Assembly: GCA_028284955.1 (NCBI GenBank) | Contig: JANQQS010000104.1 | Coordinates: forward strand, 1-64,000 | Direction of reading: 5' to 3' | DNA length: 64,000 nt | From: Myxococcota bacterium | Lineage (GTDB): Bacteria > Myxococcota_A > Polyangia > Polyangiales > Houyiibacteriaceae | In this document: positions 4,009-50,015 of the stretch, one piece after another | Numbering within the stretch: the stretch's first letter is position 1 | How the letters are laid out: every line of letters begins with the position of its first letter | Translations under genes and position numbers: made by a program | The notes under the pieces: generated by a model | Databases searched by the model: none | What the model was told of the DNA's origin: nothing | What the model saw: the letters and a program-made list of their open reading frames with translations, nothing else

Positions 4009-4131
4009 CTAGTCAAAAATTCCCAGCACAGCCATCAGTCGCTTCTCGACGGCACGGAGCTCGTTTGCAGTCAGCGTCGTGAGAGGGCCGTCACACCGTC
4101 GACAGCGATCCAGAGTGCGCGGTTGTTCGCA
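4009..4131 (-). pseudogene. MazF/PemK-family toxin, C-terminal relic
   Basis: The minus strand upstream of the TIGR04255 cassette encodes a 40-residue fragment ending VEKRLMAVLGIFD and stop. Its layout (CEQPRTLDR, then a Leu-Thr-rich turn, then an ELRAVEKRL helix) matches the last third of MazF/PemK endoribonucleases. No upstream part and no MazE-like antitoxin are present. It is a decayed toxin-antitoxin remnant at the border where the three-gene cassette begins. Confidence 0.5.
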
Positions 4132-4187
4132 CAGGATTTTGCTGCCGAATCGCCAACCACCCCGCTATTTCAATGACGATTCCCGGG

Positions 4188-4197
4188 AACAATATTG
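4188..4197. promoter_or_regulatory. ACAATATTGT palindrome upstream of cassette
   Basis: A 10-bp perfect palindrome in the short A/T-rich leader of the 4247-6648 operon, about 50 bp before the first start. It could overlap the promoter and act as a binding site for the HTH protein encoded by the second gene. This rests on position and symmetry only. Confidence 0.25.
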
Positions 4198-4246
4198 TAG
4201 CTTGAGGCGTTGTTTTGGATGTAAGATTCAGTGTAAGGAGATGCCC

Positions 4247-5062
4247 ATGAAACGCAGGTGCCGGTACGTGCCCTTGTCCAAGCAGCCGCTGGTACTGGTT
4301 CTGGGCCAGGTTCGATTCAGCCCCGTTCGCCGGATGGCGGACTATATCCCTGCAATTCAAGAGGAATTTCGGCGCCATGGGTTCCCGCTAGAGCGTGCCG
4401 GCAAGATCCAGCAGCTCATATTCCCCCCCGGGGGCGGGGTGCCAGTGCAGGTGGTCGAGCAGCAACGCTGGGAGTACCGGACCAAGGACGAGACGTGGAG
4501 CGTACTCGTGATGCAGGACAGTGTCGTCCTGCAGACCACCTCCTACGAGAGGTTCGAAGGCTTCGCGGAAAAGCTCCTGCACGCCGTCCAGACAGTCCTG
4601 GCTAAGACCGAGCATGACCAACTGGGTGTCGTCGAACGAGTCGGACTTCGCTACGTGGACGTGGTCCGACCTCGCGAAGGCGAGGACTTCCGGTTCTATC
4701 TGCGGCGCGGTTTCCACGGAGTGGCGGACGAAGTCTTCAAGAGCAGCACCCACCGTCTGCGCGTCGAGAGCACCGGCAAAACCACGATCGAAGACGTCGA
4801 CGGCACAATGGTCGTCCGCGTCGTTCAGAACGATCAGGGCTTCTCGTTGCCGCCGGACCTGCTTGGGGCGGCACCGAAACACGCGCCGCGAGCGAAGTCG
4901 GGCGAGCTCATCACTCTGGTCGACATGGACCACTACATCGAGGGAACCTTTGATCCCAATGCCGACTGGATCGTGGCCAGGGCGTATGAGATGCACGACC
5001 ATCTCGTGGAGACTCTTCACGACCACGTCGTAACCCCACAAGCGATCGAGGTGTGGAAGTGA
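4247..5062 (+). CDS. TIGR04255-like family protein, first gene of three-gene cassette
   Basis: A 271-residue protein. The opening (PLVLVLGQVRFSPVRRM...IPAIQEEFRRHGFP) and the body (WSVLVMQDSVVLQTTSYERFEGF...GLRYVD) follow the pattern of the sporadically distributed TIGR04255 family, whose biochemical role is unknown. Start ATG 4247 is fixed by an AAGGAG 6 nt upstream. The stop overlaps the next gene by 4 nt (GTGA), so the genes are translationally coupled. The C-terminal half contains an immunoglobulin-like or ferredoxin-like beta-rich pattern but no catalytic motif that I can see. Families of this patchy distribution are often accessory or defence genes; that is inference. Confidence 0.65.
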   Translation: MKRRCRYVPLSKQPLVLVLGQVRFSPVRRMADYIPAIQEEFRRHGFPLERAGKIQQLIFPPGGGVPVQVVEQQRWEYRTKDETWSVLVMQDSVVLQTTSYERFEGFAEKLLHAVQTVLAKTEHDQLGVVERVGLRYVDVVRPREGEDFRFYLRRGFHGVADEVFKSSTHRLRVESTGKTTIEDVDGTMVVRVVQNDQGFSLPPDLLGAAPKHAPRAKSGELITLVDMDHYIEGTFDPNADWIVARAYEMHDHLVETLHDHVVTPQAIEVWK

Positions 5063-5802
5063 CATCGACCATCACCTACCCGGAGTATGAGGCTGCACGG
5101 CAAGCAAGCGCGCTGCTCGCGGGGCAATCCAGCTACGCCCCGAGCAGCGGTGAAGAGGCATGGCTCACCGTCCTGAAGCCCTTGGGTTCCGGAAGCTCGG
5201 GCGTCTTCATGCTTGTGACCGATTACGGTCCGATCCTGCCGCACATTGGCTCAAGCTCGTTCGTCGTCGATCGGAGACCTGCTCGCGTCCGCACTGTGAG
5301 TCTCGTGCGGTCCGAGGTCTCGGACAACTTTCGCACCGTGATCGCACTTCCTGTCGTCGAGCAGATGCAGGAACTCCTCGCTGCGCTCTCCATCAACAAG
5401 TCCCAACTCGCCGACATTTTGCGGGTGACGCGGCCGACGATGTACGGCTGGCTCCAGGGCAAGGAGCCCAACGCCACCAACGCCGACCGTCTCCACGCGC
5501 TGCTTCGCATTCTCACGCGAGCATCCGTTTCTGGCGCCAAACCGCTCAACGCGCGCTTTGTGCGCAAGCCGATGGATCTGGATGGTCCATCCATCATCGA
5601 TCTCATTTCGGCAGAAAACCTCGATGAGGACCGCATCGTACAGACCCTTCAGCAAGCTCGGGCTCTCGGCGAGACGGCAACAGGAAGGAGAACACGTCGG
5701 GAAGATCGGCTGAACGCGCTGGGATTCGACGACCCAACGAACGAAGAGCGTCGAGAACGACTCGCCCGGAATGCAGCTCTGAAGGATTGGCCCGAGCGGT
5801 AA
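5059..5802 (+). CDS. HTH DNA-binding protein, second gene of cassette
   Basis: A 247-residue protein. The centre (ELLAALSINKSQLADILRVTRPTMYGWLQGKEPNATNADRL, in two halves around residues 110-150) is a helix-turn-helix of the XRE type: Leu-Ala-x-x-Leu-x-Val-x-Arg-x-Thr recognition helix followed by a Trp-Leu cap. The N-terminal 90 residues are beta-rich and unassigned. The C-terminus is highly charged (TGRRTRREDRL). GTG 5059 overlaps the previous stop and has GAGG 7 nt upstream; GTG 5053 is an alternative. It probably regulates the cassette, perhaps as an antitoxin-like subunit. Confidence 0.65.
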   Translation: MTSTITYPEYEAARQASALLAGQSSYAPSSGEEAWLTVLKPLGSGSSGVFMLVTDYGPILPHIGSSSFVVDRRPARVRTVSLVRSEVSDNFRTVIALPVVEQMQELLAALSINKSQLADILRVTRPTMYGWLQGKEPNATNADRLHALLRILTRASVSGAKPLNARFVRKPMDLDGPSIIDLISAENLDEDRIVQTLQQARALGETATGRRTRREDRLNALGFDDPTNEERRERLARNAALKDWPER

Positions 5803-5805
5803 AAC

Positions 5806-6648
5806 ATGAACCAGCCCTTCGACAGCGACGCAATTGCGAAGCTGGGCTGGCGTCAGGGCGCAATCCTCGACGCCAAGCTGGTCGAGAGCGCGCGAAAGCA
5901 CGCCCCGGCAACGGTGACGTTGGGCGACGGCGACTGGTTGATCGTCACGAGCCACGACTGCGACGTCGTCAACTTCAGTTTCACCAAGGAGCCGGTTATC
6001 GAGGTGGCGCGGGCGAGCGTCTTGGCCGCGAAGAAGGTGGACAAACAGCAGTCGTCGGGCCGAAACCCACGCACAATGCAGTTGGCTGTGAAGGATGGTA
6101 GTGAACCGGTAGTGCTCTCCCTGTCGGTCCACGACCGATGGTTCGTCCCAAGAGACGCACTCGTTCAAGAACCCCCCGCGCGCCATCTGCCCGACAAAGA
6201 GCGGAGGCTGATCGCGGAGTGGCTCGCGAAACGGTACATCCGGGCTGCCTTTCCGACGGCCTTCGATCTTCGCTGGCGCATCAAGCTGAAGGACTGGCAG
6301 AAGCTCCTCAAGGCGCACAGTGAGTGGATCCAAGGCATCTACCTTCGCCTGTCGACACTCGACGAGCTTCCAAATGGGACGCCGTACATGTGCCACCTTA
6401 TTGTCGCCGTGCCTCACGCGAAGCGAGCTGGCTCCGCCTGGCCCAAGAAACGGGAGGAACTCGAGAAGGCGATCGAGGCGTTCTGGAACCAGTTCAAGCC
6501 GGGGATCGAATGCGCGGGCGTCGAGCCTCTCGGCACCGACGAGATAACTCTCGCAGACATCGAGCTCTACCAGCGGTTCGACGCGGACTGGGTGAGTTTC
6601 GACGACGACACACCGGTCACACCTGCCCATGCCGACATGACCGCCTGA
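5806..6648 (+). CDS. Uncharacterised protein, third gene of cassette
   Basis: A 280-residue soluble protein starting 3 nt after the previous stop, so certainly co-transcribed. I do not recognise the family. Visible marks: a WLIVTSHDCDVVN segment near residue 45, where a His-Asp-Cys-Asp cluster follows a predicted strand; a basic patch (KRYIRAAFPTAF, RIKLKDWQKLL); and an acidic C-terminus (WVSFDDDTP). The SHDCD cluster could be a metal or catalytic site. No signal peptide or membrane segment. With its two neighbours it forms a self-contained cassette ending exactly where a dispersed repeat begins. Confidence 0.55.
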   Translation: MNQPFDSDAIAKLGWRQGAILDAKLVESARKHAPATVTLGDGDWLIVTSHDCDVVNFSFTKEPVIEVARASVLAAKKVDKQQSSGRNPRTMQLAVKDGSEPVVLSLSVHDRWFVPRDALVQEPPARHLPDKERRLIAEWLAKRYIRAAFPTAFDLRWRIKLKDWQKLLKAHSEWIQGIYLRLSTLDELPNGTPYMCHLIVAVPHAKRAGSAWPKKREELEKAIEAFWNQFKPGIECAGVEPLGTDEITLADIELYQRFDADWVSFDDDTPVTPAHADMTA

Positions 6649-6650
6649 CG

Positions 6651-6830
6651 CAACCTGGGTATCGGGGACACGCACCGCGAGTCCAAATTCTTGAAATCGT
6701 TGGGTTGATCAGAAAAGTGTGAAAGTTTGATTTTAAGCGATGGCTCGAGTTCGTTGCGCGCCATGTTCTCTAAGTATCTTGGCCAACTTTTGCGTTTTTC
6801 TGGAACGCTTTGTATCTGCCAGTACTTGGC
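6651..6830. repeat. Dispersed ~180-bp repeat, copy 1
   Basis: This non-coding stretch, starting 3 nt after the cassette stop, is clearly homologous to 47450-47641. Shared blocks include GACACGCACCGCGAGTCC, AGTTTGATTTT and CCAACTTTTGCGTTTTTCTGG-like sequence in the same order and spacing, with one 20-bp insertion in the other copy. No tRNA or protein is encoded. It looks like the residual edge of a mobile segment. Confidence 0.75.
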
Positions 6831-44817: not shown

Positions 44818-45678
44818 ATGGAACGAACCCTCTCCCAAAACGAGGCCAAGGTGGTCCTCGACCTCGAGTGGCGGAACCAGAAGACCGTCACCCTGGCCGA
44901 GTTGCGCGAAGCGCTCGGTGCTTCGGAGGGCTACGCCCGCAAGCTCGCCCACCGGCTGGTGAAGAAGGGCTGGCTCGAGCGTCTGCGCCCGGGCCTGTTC
45001 CAACTCGTCCCCGCTGATCGCGGCCGCGAGGGGATCGCCGACACGAACCCGCTCGCCGCCGGCGCTGTGCTGGTCTCGCCATACTTCTACTCCTTCGGCA
45101 CCACCTGCACTCACCACGGGCTGACCGAGCAGGTCTTCTCCGAGGTGTACCTCGCCTGCCAGGAGGACCGCCGGCCCGAAACCATCCGCGGCAAGCGGTA
45201 CGTCTTCGTTCAGATCCGCGAACAGCGCTTCTTCGGCTTCGAGGAGCTCACCGTCCTCGGACACGCGGTTCAGATGGCGACGACCGAGAGGGCGTTGCTC
45301 GACGCGATCGACCGGCCCCGATACGCTGGTGGGATCGGAGAGGTCTCTCGGATTGCCGCCCGGGCCGCCCGCAAGGTGTCGTGGGAGCCGCTCATCGAGC
45401 TCGCGCGCAAGTGGGGCTCGTCGGCGCTGGTGCAGCGGCTGGGCTACTTCATGGAGCTCCACCAGGTCGACGTACCCGACGACGTGCGCGCTGCCCTCCT
45501 CGAGCTCGTCCGTCCTCAGAGCAAGATCCAGCTCGGCTCGCGCCGCAACTGGGGCACGAGCGGCAAGCTCGCGCGACCGTGGAACGTGGTGGAGAACGTC
45601 CCCCGCGACGTGCTCCTCTCGAAGGAAGAGAAGCCGCGCCGCAGGGTGGTTTTCGCCAAGAAGGAACAGAGCAAGTGA
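44818..45678 (+). CDS. AbiEi-family antitoxin/repressor
   Basis: A 286-residue type IV antitoxin. The N-terminal winged helix is clear (VTLAELREALGASEGYARKL, then VKKGWLERLRPGLFQLVP). The C-terminal part has the family features (FSEVYLACQEDRRPETIRGK, RYVFVQI, TTERALLDAIDRPRYAGGI). It should repress its own operon and counteract the downstream nucleotidyltransferase toxin. ATG 44818 has GAGG 6 nt upstream. The stop overlaps the toxin start by 4 nt (GTGA). This is the only intact AbiE pair in the window. Confidence 0.85.
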   Translation: MERTLSQNEAKVVLDLEWRNQKTVTLAELREALGASEGYARKLAHRLVKKGWLERLRPGLFQLVPADRGREGIADTNPLAAGAVLVSPYFYSFGTTCTHHGLTEQVFSEVYLACQEDRRPETIRGKRYVFVQIREQRFFGFEELTVLGHAVQMATTERALLDAIDRPRYAGGIGEVSRIAARAARKVSWEPLIELARKWGSSALVQRLGYFMELHQVDVPDDVRAALLELVRPQSKIQLGSRRNWGTSGKLARPWNVVENVPRDVLLSKEEKPRRRVVFAKKEQSK

Positions 45679-46574
45679 TCGAGGACAAGTTCGTCGACCT
45701 CTACGCGCGCAACAGCGGCCTGCGCGACAAGCTCGTCGCCGAGCGGGATGTCGTCCTGACCTACGCCTTGCGCGCGCTGCTCGACGCCGGCGTGATGGAC
45801 CACCTCGCGTTCAAGGGCGGCACCTGTCTGCGCAAGCTGATCTTCGGCTCCGCCGGCCGGTTCTCCGAGGACCTCGACTTCACGCTCGACAGCGACCGCC
45901 CCGACGACGACGTGCTCACCGACCTGGTCGAGGTCTTCAACACCGAGTACCACGGCGTCAGCTTCACGTTCGACGAGTACTACAAGACCGACGACGACAC
46001 CTCCTTCGGCGGCGACGTCTACTACAAGCATGCCTGGAACGAAGCCGGCCACTTCCGGCTGCAGGTGAGCCTGCGCGAGCGCCCGACGCTGCCGGTAGTG
46101 GCGGGCGCCATGAAACCGCAGGCGTACTTCAGCCACATCGAGTTCGAGCTTTTCGACGTGCGCTCGCTCGAGGCCGTCGAGATGATCGCCGAGAAGGTCC
46201 GCGCCGCGTTCCAGCGGGTCAAAGTCCGGGACCTCTATGATCTGCACCGCTTCGCGACGACTCCCTTCAACGGCGAGCTCCTGCGACGGCTCGCCGTGCT
46301 GAAGCTCTGGCAGGATCGCGATCCATTCGACCCCGAGGCGTTGTTCGAGAAGATCCGCGGCGGCGACTACGACTGGGTGGACATCCAGCGGCTGGTCCGG
46401 TCCTCCGAACGCATCGAGCCCACCGAGATCATTCAGACCGTCGAGGGCAGCTTCGACATCCTGCGCGGGTTGACCGAGCTGGAGCAGGAGGTCATCGCCG
46501 ACGCGAAGAGCGGCTGGAACGAGCCCCTCGCCGATCAGTTGCGCGCCGAGATCCGAGAGCTGGCTGCCGGCTGA
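45675..46574 (+). CDS. AbiEii-family nucleotidyltransferase toxin
   Basis: A 299-residue toxin. Nucleotidyltransferase core: LAFKGGTCLRKLIFG (GG-x-S/T-like) followed by RFSEDLDFTLD with the DxD acids, then KVRAAFQRVKVRDLYDLHR carrying the conserved K...RDLYDL. It starts at GTG 45675 overlapping the antitoxin stop. Such AbiE toxins arrest growth when a phage or stress unbalances the pair. Downstream, 46575-46806 shows no supported gene. Confidence 0.85.
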   Translation: MIEDKFVDLYARNSGLRDKLVAERDVVLTYALRALLDAGVMDHLAFKGGTCLRKLIFGSAGRFSEDLDFTLDSDRPDDDVLTDLVEVFNTEYHGVSFTFDEYYKTDDDTSFGGDVYYKHAWNEAGHFRLQVSLRERPTLPVVAGAMKPQAYFSHIEFELFDVRSLEAVEMIAEKVRAAFQRVKVRDLYDLHRFATTPFNGELLRRLAVLKLWQDRDPFDPEALFEKIRGGDYDWVDIQRLVRSSERIEPTEIIQTVEGSFDILRGLTELEQEVIADAKSGWNEPLADQLRAEIRELAAG

Positions 46575-47454: not shown

Positions 47455-47641
47455 AGTATCGGTGACACGCACCGCGAGTCCAGGCTCTTGAAATCGCTGG
47501 ATTGCTCAGAAAAGTGCAGAAGTTTGATTTTGGGCGGCGGTTCAAGTCAGTTGGGTTCAAGTCAGTTGCACGACATGTTTCTCTAGGCATTTGGCCAACT
47601 TTTGCGTTTTTCTGGAGCGCCCAGTAATTTCAAGCACTTGG
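47450..47641. repeat. Dispersed repeat, copy 2
   Basis: Homologous to 6651-6830 and starting exactly where the tRNA-end copy stops. It contains a local tandem duplication of TTCAAGTCAGTTG absent from copy 1. No gene is visible. Confidence 0.75.
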
Positions 47642-47655
47642 TAGTATGGCGCGTG

Positions 47656-47893
47656 TCACCGACGGACCGGTACGAAATAGCGGATCCGGCGAAGGTAGAC
47701 GCGGCGGAGACGTGGGTCTTGCTCGACCGGACGGCCAACGAGTTCCGGGCGGTCTTCGAGCTGAAGCACGAGCGAATCGAGATCGGCGTCGAAAGCGCTG
47801 GGGGCTTTGTCCCGGTTTTCCAGCCACCACACGCGCGCTTCGAGGATTTGTTCCGCCGCGAGCGCGGTGAGCTCGACCGTGGCGATAGCTCAC
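47656..47893 (-). pseudogene. ParE/RelE-type toxin, frameshifted near start
   Basis: The frame reads VELTALAAEQILEARVWWLE, later LRRVYLRRIRYFVPVRR and stop. This is the ParE fold: helix-loop-helix then strands, with a basic C-terminal strand. The only sensible start, GTG 47893 overlapping the antitoxin stop (GTGA), is in another frame; deleting one C of CGCC at codon 4 would restore a 78-residue toxin. Antitoxin then toxin, overlapping, is the usual order. Confidence 0.6.
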
Positions 47894-48344: not shown

Positions 48345-50015
48345 CTACGTAGCGCTGTCGATCGTGGTCACGACTTGCTCGAGAAATTTACGGCAGTGCG
48401 TCAAATCAGGCGTGTCGATTCCTTGGCGCACAACCTTATTGAGCTCTTTCTTCACCGCGCTCCAGTCTTCTGATTGCACGATGCGTTCGCCGTTCTGCTT
48501 TTTTGCAATGCCAGCCTTGGTCTTCTCGGCTGCCTCGACAATCCTGTTGGAGAAGGCACGCTCGATTCCACGAAACGACTTTCCCAGATCCGGATTCAGC
48601 GCGCTCTCAGGCCAGGCGAAGACATGAACGGGATCTCCCTTTTTGAATAGCTTCCGGAAGCCATCGGCCTTGTTGGCCGCATCCCAATCGAGGATCACAA
48701 TCAGGGGCGCACGATTCGAACGCGTGGCTACCGCGTCTCGATGTTGTCGGAGGTACTTCTTCATTTGATCAGTACCACCGCCACCCATTTTGCCATTGAG
48801 AGATTCGATGCACACAACGTTGATCTTCCGCGTCGGACGGATCAGTCGAAATACTGTTTCCAAGAAGTCCACGTCAAAGCGACCCTCAGCAAAAACAAGG
48901 GCGTCCAGCGGATAGTACAGCAGCGGGTGCACCCACCGCGAAACACCAGCATTCGCTGATCGCACCAAGGCGTCGCGGGGGTCTCCCAATGGCTGAAGTT
49001 GGCTCTTTCCTCTGTCACGCTCAAGAAATCCCACGCAATCGGCGTACTGCAGCATCAAGTCGGAGTGAGTTGTCGAGACAACCTGCAGGCGACCACTAGC
49101 TTCAGACGCGATCTGGCGGAGATAGGCCGCGAGCTGAGCTTCTAGCGAGGCGTGAAGTGATGATTCAGGTTCCTCGACGGCCCAGATTGCAGCCTGCCGC
49201 CACCCGAAGTTCTGGAAGTAATCACGGTCGATGAGAGAAAGAGTTTCGAACATCAACAGACTTTGCACGCCCGACCCTTGAAGCAGATCATCGATTTCCA
49301 CGTCGTCGGTAACGAGCTCGTAGCCGAGCGCGAAGAGGATCTCCGCCCATGTGTCCGGTGTCTTCAAGCGGACGGCGTCGACTTCGGGGACGAGTGATTG
49401 GAAGTGCTTTGCGATACCCTTGATCAGCTTCGACGAAGTCCGCCGCAACTCTTCGAACACTTTTGTCTGTTCAGCGTTTCGCTGACCAAGACGTCGAACC
49501 AGCGCGTCACGAAGGGCAACACTCTCCTGACGAATCACGTCCGTAGGAAGGACACGGTTGGGAATGTATCGAAACGAGATCATGGCCATGAACTGGCTGG
49601 CGATTCGCGCTTTCTCCAGGTCGAGCGCCGTGTCGCTATCGTTGAGGAAGTATGCGGGATCTTGGGAGTGGTTCCGATCCCACTCCTTGGCAAGCGAGAA
49701 CTCGCGGCCGACGAGTTTCTCCACCGGGCCGAGTCCCTTGCGAAATTTGAAGTTTTTCGGCAAGGAGAACGAAACGCGCACGCGGATGCGCTTCTTCTTC
49801 TTCTGCTTAAGCTCGGGCCGATAAAAATCCCGGTCCACATCGATCGGGGTGCCCGGTTCTACTTCGTTGGTGAAGAACGCATGAAGTGCTCGAAGTACAT
49901 TCGACTTTCCCGAATTGTTCAGTCCCGCAAGCGCAGTAAAATCGCCCAAGTCCTTCAGCTCGACGTGTTGAATGGAACGGAAACGGGAGATCTCGATACT
50001 CTGGAGCAGTTTCAC
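48345..50015 (-). CDS. OLD-family-like ATPase with TOPRIM nuclease domain
   Basis: A 556-residue protein of the overcoming-lysogenization-defect type. ABC/SMC-like ATPase: FRSIQHVELKDLGDFTALAG with Walker A GLNNSGKS (about 31-38), signature-like QGSGVQSLL, Walker B AIWAVEEPESSLH, and VVSTTHSDLML. The C-terminal TOPRIM domain has the metal-binding Glu in LVFAEGRFDVDFLE and the DxD in VILDWDAANK. OLD nucleases act in phage defence, some with a helicase (GajB) or AriB partner. No such partner is present here, so it would be a single-gene class. It lies between direct repeats of the tRNA-Asn end. Confidence 0.8.
   Translation of the reverse strand: MKLLQSIEISRFRSIQHVELKDLGDFTALAGLNNSGKSNVLRALHAFFTNEVEPGTPIDVDRDFYRPELKQKKKKRIRVRVSFSLPKNFKFRKGLGPVEKLVGREFSLAKEWDRNHSQDPAYFLNDSDTALDLEKARIASQFMAMISFRYIPNRVLPTDVIRQESVALRDALVRRLGQRNAEQTKVFEELRRTSSKLIKGIAKHFQSLVPEVDAVRLKTPDTWAEILFALGYELVTDDVEIDDLLQGSGVQSLLMFETLSLIDRDYFQNFGWRQAAIWAVEEPESSLHASLEAQLAAYLRQIASEASGRLQVVSTTHSDLMLQYADCVGFLERDRGKSQLQPLGDPRDALVRSANAGVSRWVHPLLYYPLDALVFAEGRFDVDFLETVFRLIRPTRKINVVCIESLNGKMGGGGTDQMKKYLRQHRDAVATRSNRAPLIVILDWDAANKADGFRKLFKKGDPVHVFAWPESALNPDLGKSFRGIERAFSNRIVEAAEKTKAGIAKKQNGERIVQSEDWSAVKKELNKVVRQGIDTPDLTHCRKFLEQVVTTIDSAT

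Follow-up and report, generated by a model that had tools for sequence, protein, structure and literature searches.

A mobile three-gene operon of a TIGR04255 protein, a helix-turn-helix protein and a predicted MazF-fold protein in a Myxococcota genome

The 64,000-nucleotide stretch of contig JANQQS010000104.1 analysed here (hereafter the window; Myxococcota bacterium, GenBank assembly GCA_028284955.1) contains three closely spaced genes, designated A, B and C, which raise the question of whether they constitute a genetic unit and what the role of such a unit may be. The initial annotation described a mobile cassette encoding a TIGR04255 protein, a helix-turn-helix (HTH) protein and a protein with an SHDCD cluster, preceded by a leader palindrome and bordered by a MazF relic and a dispersed repeat. 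It suggested a toxin-antitoxin or anti-phage unit in which the HTH protein regulates and the SHDCD protein acts. The features of the locus are listed in Table 1.

Table 1. Features of the A-B-C locus, in window coordinates
Feature	Position	Strand	Description
MazF/PemK C-terminal relic	4009-4164	-	Left border, ~51 codons
Perfect 10-mer palindrome in leader	4180-4189		TTCCCGGGAA
Perfect 10-mer palindrome in leader	4189-4198		ACAATATTGT
Direct-repeat putative operator	4220-4236	+	TGTAA-N7-TGTAA, 12-nt period, 27 nt before gene A
Gene A	4247-5062	+	271 aa, TIGR04255 family protein; ribosome-binding site AAGGAG at 4235-4240
Gene B	5059-5802	+	Helix-turn-helix protein; start GTG 5059 or GTG 5053
Gene C	5806-6648	+	280 aa, SHDCD protein, starts 3 nt after B
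MazF/Kid/CcdB-fold domain of C	5845-6246	+	Residues ~14-147, from predicted model and structural alignment
SHDCD motif	5950-5964	+	C residues 49-53
Dispersed MITE-like repeat copy	6652-6830	+	Right border, 3 nt past stop of C

The tight coupling described for the three genes was observed, with a 4-nt overlap between A and B (B being read from GTG 5059) and a 3-nt gap between B and C, and the first gene is indeed a TIGR04255 member, matching the NCBIfam model over positions 2-251 of 252 (E 1.9e-34, 119.6 bits, cut-off 30). In a co-occurrence search, the order A-B-C recurred at every testable locus found with C, except for one weak match to the C profile (G204, E 2.8e-4), which contains a stop, has neither A nor B beside it and was counted as uncertain. 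With C as the sole query against genome contigs, L005-L007 carried A and B upstream in order, and L008 begins inside C. The C profile had matches in 12 of the 379 genomes of the window's phylum, and apart from G204, A and B accompany C at all its loci whose flanking sequence is long enough to show them, including those with a very diverged C (E about 1e-7). All the eight plasmid records with C (Gloeocapsopsis, Gloeocapsa, Robbsia, two Vibrio, two Pseudomonas and Meiothermus) contain A-B-C, as do two Acinetobacter phage records and six viral contigs; searches of viral contigs with the C proteins of the window, Robbsia, Vibrio and Pseudomonas gave no match, and no DNA match to the B-C gene pair of Klebsiella was found in E. 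coli. With A as the query, 14 plasmid records matched, and B and C were present in each of the 13 examined. The order is thus kept both from the C side and from the plasmid A side, and a predominantly separate occurrence of the genes, which would speak against a cassette, is not what is seen. The hosts include Gemmatimonadetes, Cyanobacteria, Deinococcota and Proteobacteria, and the cassettes adjoin tyrosine recombinases, a recombinase cluster and Tn7-like genes. The mobility proposed for the cassette is borne out by its presence on plasmids, in phage records and beside integrases in several phyla: A-B-C is a self-contained operon that plasmids, prophages and islands carry across large phylogenetic distances among bacteria.

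Both proposed border elements are real, and neither appears to be a part of the conserved unit. The MazF relic, whose minus-strand reading frame ends in ...LTTLTANELRAVEKRLMAVLGIFD and a stop, matches profile positions 69-109 of 109 of PF02452 (E 6.4e-5, 23.6 bits, gathering score 23.1), lacks a start codon and has in-frame stops upstream. It is a separate degenerate gene on the opposite strand, with no sign of membership in the A-B-C unit. The right-hand repeat, present from about 6652, has four more full or partial copies in the same genome, and copies are absent from the 37 relatives searched; it is a separate multi-copy element and a border in this genome only. The further copies of this MITE-like repeat (~160-200 bp, with ~65-69 nt arms that are inverted in the C216 and C156 copies) lie at window 47459-47662, G000:C216:51707-51907 (L120), G000:C156:34403-34564 (L122) and G000:C162:8177-8239 (L141). 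Four of the five copies are located 3-22 nt from the stop codon of a toxin- or conflict-type gene, the adjoining genes being C in the window, AbiEii in C216, a PIN domain gene in C162 and a DUF4143 ATPase gene in C156, the last copy having an AbiEii-like gene on its opposite side. The second window copy is flanked by an AbiEii-type nucleotidyltransferase (45381-46574, plus strand; PF08843 E 1.1e-28) and an AAA_15/OLD-like ATPase (48345-50015, minus strand). An integron cassette was rejected as the identity of the repeat, on the grounds that the genome has no integron integrase over the cut-off and that the GTTRRRY core is lost in some copies.

Gene B contains a Cro/C1-type, HTH_26/HTH_3-like segment (residues 106-154, E 1.4e-3), which lies below the Pfam cut-off in the window copy and is matched more strongly by the homologues. 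Identification of B as a membrane protein was rejected; a hydrophobic stretch is found in many homologues, but its values are not separated from those of A and C, and no clear stretch of this kind is present in the window copy. The leader contains two perfect 10-mer palindromes where one had been described, and a version of the second, ACAAATTTGT, is present in the leaders of the two closest relatives (L005, L006). A better conserved leader element is the TGTAA direct repeat, which is absent from the initial annotation. The pattern TGTRA-N7-TGTRA is exact (10/10 match) in 19 of the 30 loci that have B, against 0 of the 31 TIGR04255 loci lacking it, counts that are not fully independent since some of the loci are near-duplicates and that come from the loci on which the pattern was learned; random windows of the same loci reach this score in 0.6%. 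Among six plasmid loci examined later and lying outside this training set, four have the exact repeat. The Acinetobacter leader carries GGGTAA-N6-GGGTAA (8/10 match), and a subgroup (L033, L034, L035, L038, L079) has a reversed TGTRA repeat at about -79. Scans for sigma-70 promoters and terminators gave no excess above shuffles, and an Rfam search gave no match. As the repeat co-occurs with B, B is likely an autoregulator, and autoregulation through binding of B is likely to be the simplest cause of the conserved leader repeat; the HTH protein is thus very probably the regulator, as had been proposed.

Gene C has no sequence match in Pfam, NCBIfam, PADLOC or PDB, and PDB profile searches with C and A gave no convincing match; phrog_34320 matches 8 of the 13 members of the C family. 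The reported SHDCD cluster is located at residues 49-53, in which Cys52 and Asp53 are present in all the 26 aligned homologues and His50 is not invariant. Arg146, Pro150 and Ser264 are likewise kept in 26 of 26 homologues, and Gln17 and Gly18 in 25. The invariance of Cys52-Asp53 suggests chemistry or metal binding. An AlphaFold2 model of C, based on ten homologues (mean pLDDT 72.6, pTM 0.51), gave MazF proteins as the top Foldseek matches, with a best E-value of only 4.7e-3. In VIA-align, the best 50 matches were all toxins of the MazF, Kid, CcdB or similar kinds (Z 7.1-9.3), with alignments spanning 107-115 residues and the best Z of 9.3 obtained over 107 residues. When C was aligned by profile with seven MazF proteins from relatives, the alignment was weak (P 0.0018, probability 15%) but placed residues 102-141 opposite the last MazF strand and helix, in the same register as the structural alignment; for A and B, P was about 0.4. 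On the evidence of the model, residues ~14-147 of C are assigned a MazF/Kid/CcdB fold. No match to PF02452 was found at E 0.1 for C or any of 13 homologues, and the catalytic residues of MazF, an Arg ahead of strand 2 and a Ser/Thr behind strand 3, are unrecognisable in the C sequence alignments; therefore, C was not filed as a MazF member despite the fold of its first domain.

The predicted toxin fold of the N-terminal domain makes C the likely effector, in keeping with the acting role first suggested for the SHDCD protein. A MazF-like fold could also have a non-toxic role. In L043 C breaks off after ~residue 62 and in L080 it has a frameshift, A and B scoring intact in both; in L041, whose sequence begins inside the gene, C carries a stop. 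These broken copies, few in number and derived from draft assemblies in which sequencing error is possible, fit C as a costly gene.

Genes of the TIGR04255 family are present in 51 of the 379 genomes of the phylum, at 63 places. Examination of 40 TIGR04255 places without an already known A-B-C unit in this sample added B and C at four (L079-L082); at L087 a TIGR04255 homologue is close to A, yet has neither B nor C. Many other TIGR04255 genes directly precede second and third genes of differing families, often with overlapping or touching ends. Such operons contain an HNH nuclease with its own middle gene (E 3.9e-5, over the cut-off, in L096 and just below it in L088) and a HEAT-repeat middle gene (E 9.4e-7), and shorter proteins with a C-like QGD...TCD pattern are encoded in the operons of L097, L110 and L117 and of L103 and L107. 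Several groups of partner genes matched no family; PIN-like and aspartic-protease-like third genes fell below the cut-offs and were not counted. The differing genes behind TIGR04255 suggest that a sensor or adaptor stays the same while the effectors are exchanged, and we infer that TIGR04255 is the constant part whose partners are swapped. Two further types of third gene were noted in these operons. The proteins in L084 and L093 (~180 aa, 39% identical) share the motif IPADAI..DL(R/K)T..N.LSFW(R/Q)C, that of L084 having no clear Pfam match, and those in L085, L102 and L113 have the motif GL(T/S)CATFV(L/M)A, which hints at a cysteine hydrolase, that of L113 having no Pfam match. The AlphaFold model of A (pTM 0.81) has no clear fold match; resemblance to guanido kinases reached a Z of 8.8, near background, and AdoMetDC or TBP folds had TM values below 0.4 in Foldseek. 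Since its matches are near background, the fold of A was not assigned.

Because of the MazF-like domain in C, A-B-C probably represents a toxin-like or anti-phage system not described before. On balance we favour, as somewhat probable, an autoregulated, horizontally moving conflict module of toxin-antitoxin-like or anti-phage type, with C as the effector, B as the repressor and A as the constant partner. This reading draws on the kept gene order, the predicted fold of C, the leader repeat, the mobile surroundings and the defence-type neighbours described below, the differing partners of TIGR04255 and the finding that the broken gene is C. B would bind the tandem TGTRA repeats of the leader and repress the operon. 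A would restrain C or sense a trigger, possibly phage, and would work with other middle and third genes elsewhere. C, a putatively toxic protein with a MazF/Kid/CcdB-fold domain bearing its own Cys-Asp motif and followed by a second region, would, once released, most likely attack RNA or another nucleic-acid target.

The plasmid and integrase contexts, the signature of operon autoregulation and the MazF fold of C are also features of a plain addiction module, that is, a tripartite type II toxin-antitoxin system stabilising plasmids or islands with C as toxin, A as antitoxin, B as repressor and no sensing of phage. We consider this possible, if rather unlikely, as the operon consists of three genes of 200-280 aa and not two small ones, A is swapped among many operons with unlike third genes, and restriction or DISARM genes are neighbours at several loci. 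The latter include homologues of DISARM DrmB and DrmC (E 7.6e-81 and 1.7e-62; L005:54-2677) ~2 kb upstream of an A-B-C cassette, and type I restriction, type I methyltransferase and type IIG genes near cassettes; a type I methyltransferase and PglX also occur around other TIGR04255 operons, all these neighbours having been picked by eye with no background rate.

Several cassettes lie among prophage structural, late or lysis genes. This location, together with the unrecognisable MazF catalytic positions and the lack of a PF02452 signature in C, would suit a unit borne by phages or plasmids that serves regulation or superinfection control, in which the MazF-fold protein C would act by binding, without catalysis, and B would switch the promoter. 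Such a unit appears distinctly improbable, because the Cys52-Asp53 pair is invariant in all homologues, suggesting chemistry or metal binding, and the cassette also occurs on chromosomes and plasmids with no phage genes in its vicinity. The reverse arrangement, with A as the catalytic or toxic component and C as its inhibitor, draws on A being the most widespread member and on its weak resemblance to guanido kinases, and is the least probable, given that this resemblance is near background, that the third genes differ from operon to operon and can encode an HNH nuclease, a pattern expected for effectors, and that the broken gene is C.

The conflict module in the window may also be part of a larger group. 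We suggest, tentatively and as a possibility that falls short of probable, that there is a large, as yet unrecognised class of prokaryotic immune operons of modular build, in which TIGR04255 is the constant core, followed by an adaptor and an effector that can each be exchanged. The window would then represent a branch of this class in which the adaptor is an HTH protein and the effector has a MazF fold and uses a new Cys-Asp active site. Should partner exchange prove general, TIGR04255 would be the marker of an entire class of toxin-like or anti-phage operons that are so far unrecorded and are missed by gene-by-gene databases. PADLOC-DB 2.0.0 contained no family matching A, B or C at E 1, and literature searches, short of newer lists and subscription papers, found neither a mention of TIGR04255 nor a description of such a three-gene unit; a term search of the DefensePredictor paper (PMC13092281) found no such unit.

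Tripartite toxin-antitoxin systems comprise a separate regulator, antitoxin and toxin. A-B-C is like them in having three genes, one probable DNA-binding regulator and one toxin-fold protein, whereas no sequence relation between them was found. With the MazF/PemK/Kid and CcdB toxins, residues 14-147 of C share, in the predicted model, the fold and the strand order, a QGD-like start of the first strand and a final strand and helix in register. C differs from them in the absence of a PF02452 match and of recognisable catalytic Arg/Thr positions, in its own (S/T)(H/Q)xCD motif and in an extra C-terminal region of ~115 residues; the partners of the known toxins are MazE or CcdA, whereas those of C are a TIGR04255 protein and an HTH protein. 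TIGR04255 (sporadTIGR04255), of which gene A is a member by the curated score, has been a family name without a function, and it is tied here to a defined operon and genetic context, a conserved putative operator and a probable effector of known fold.
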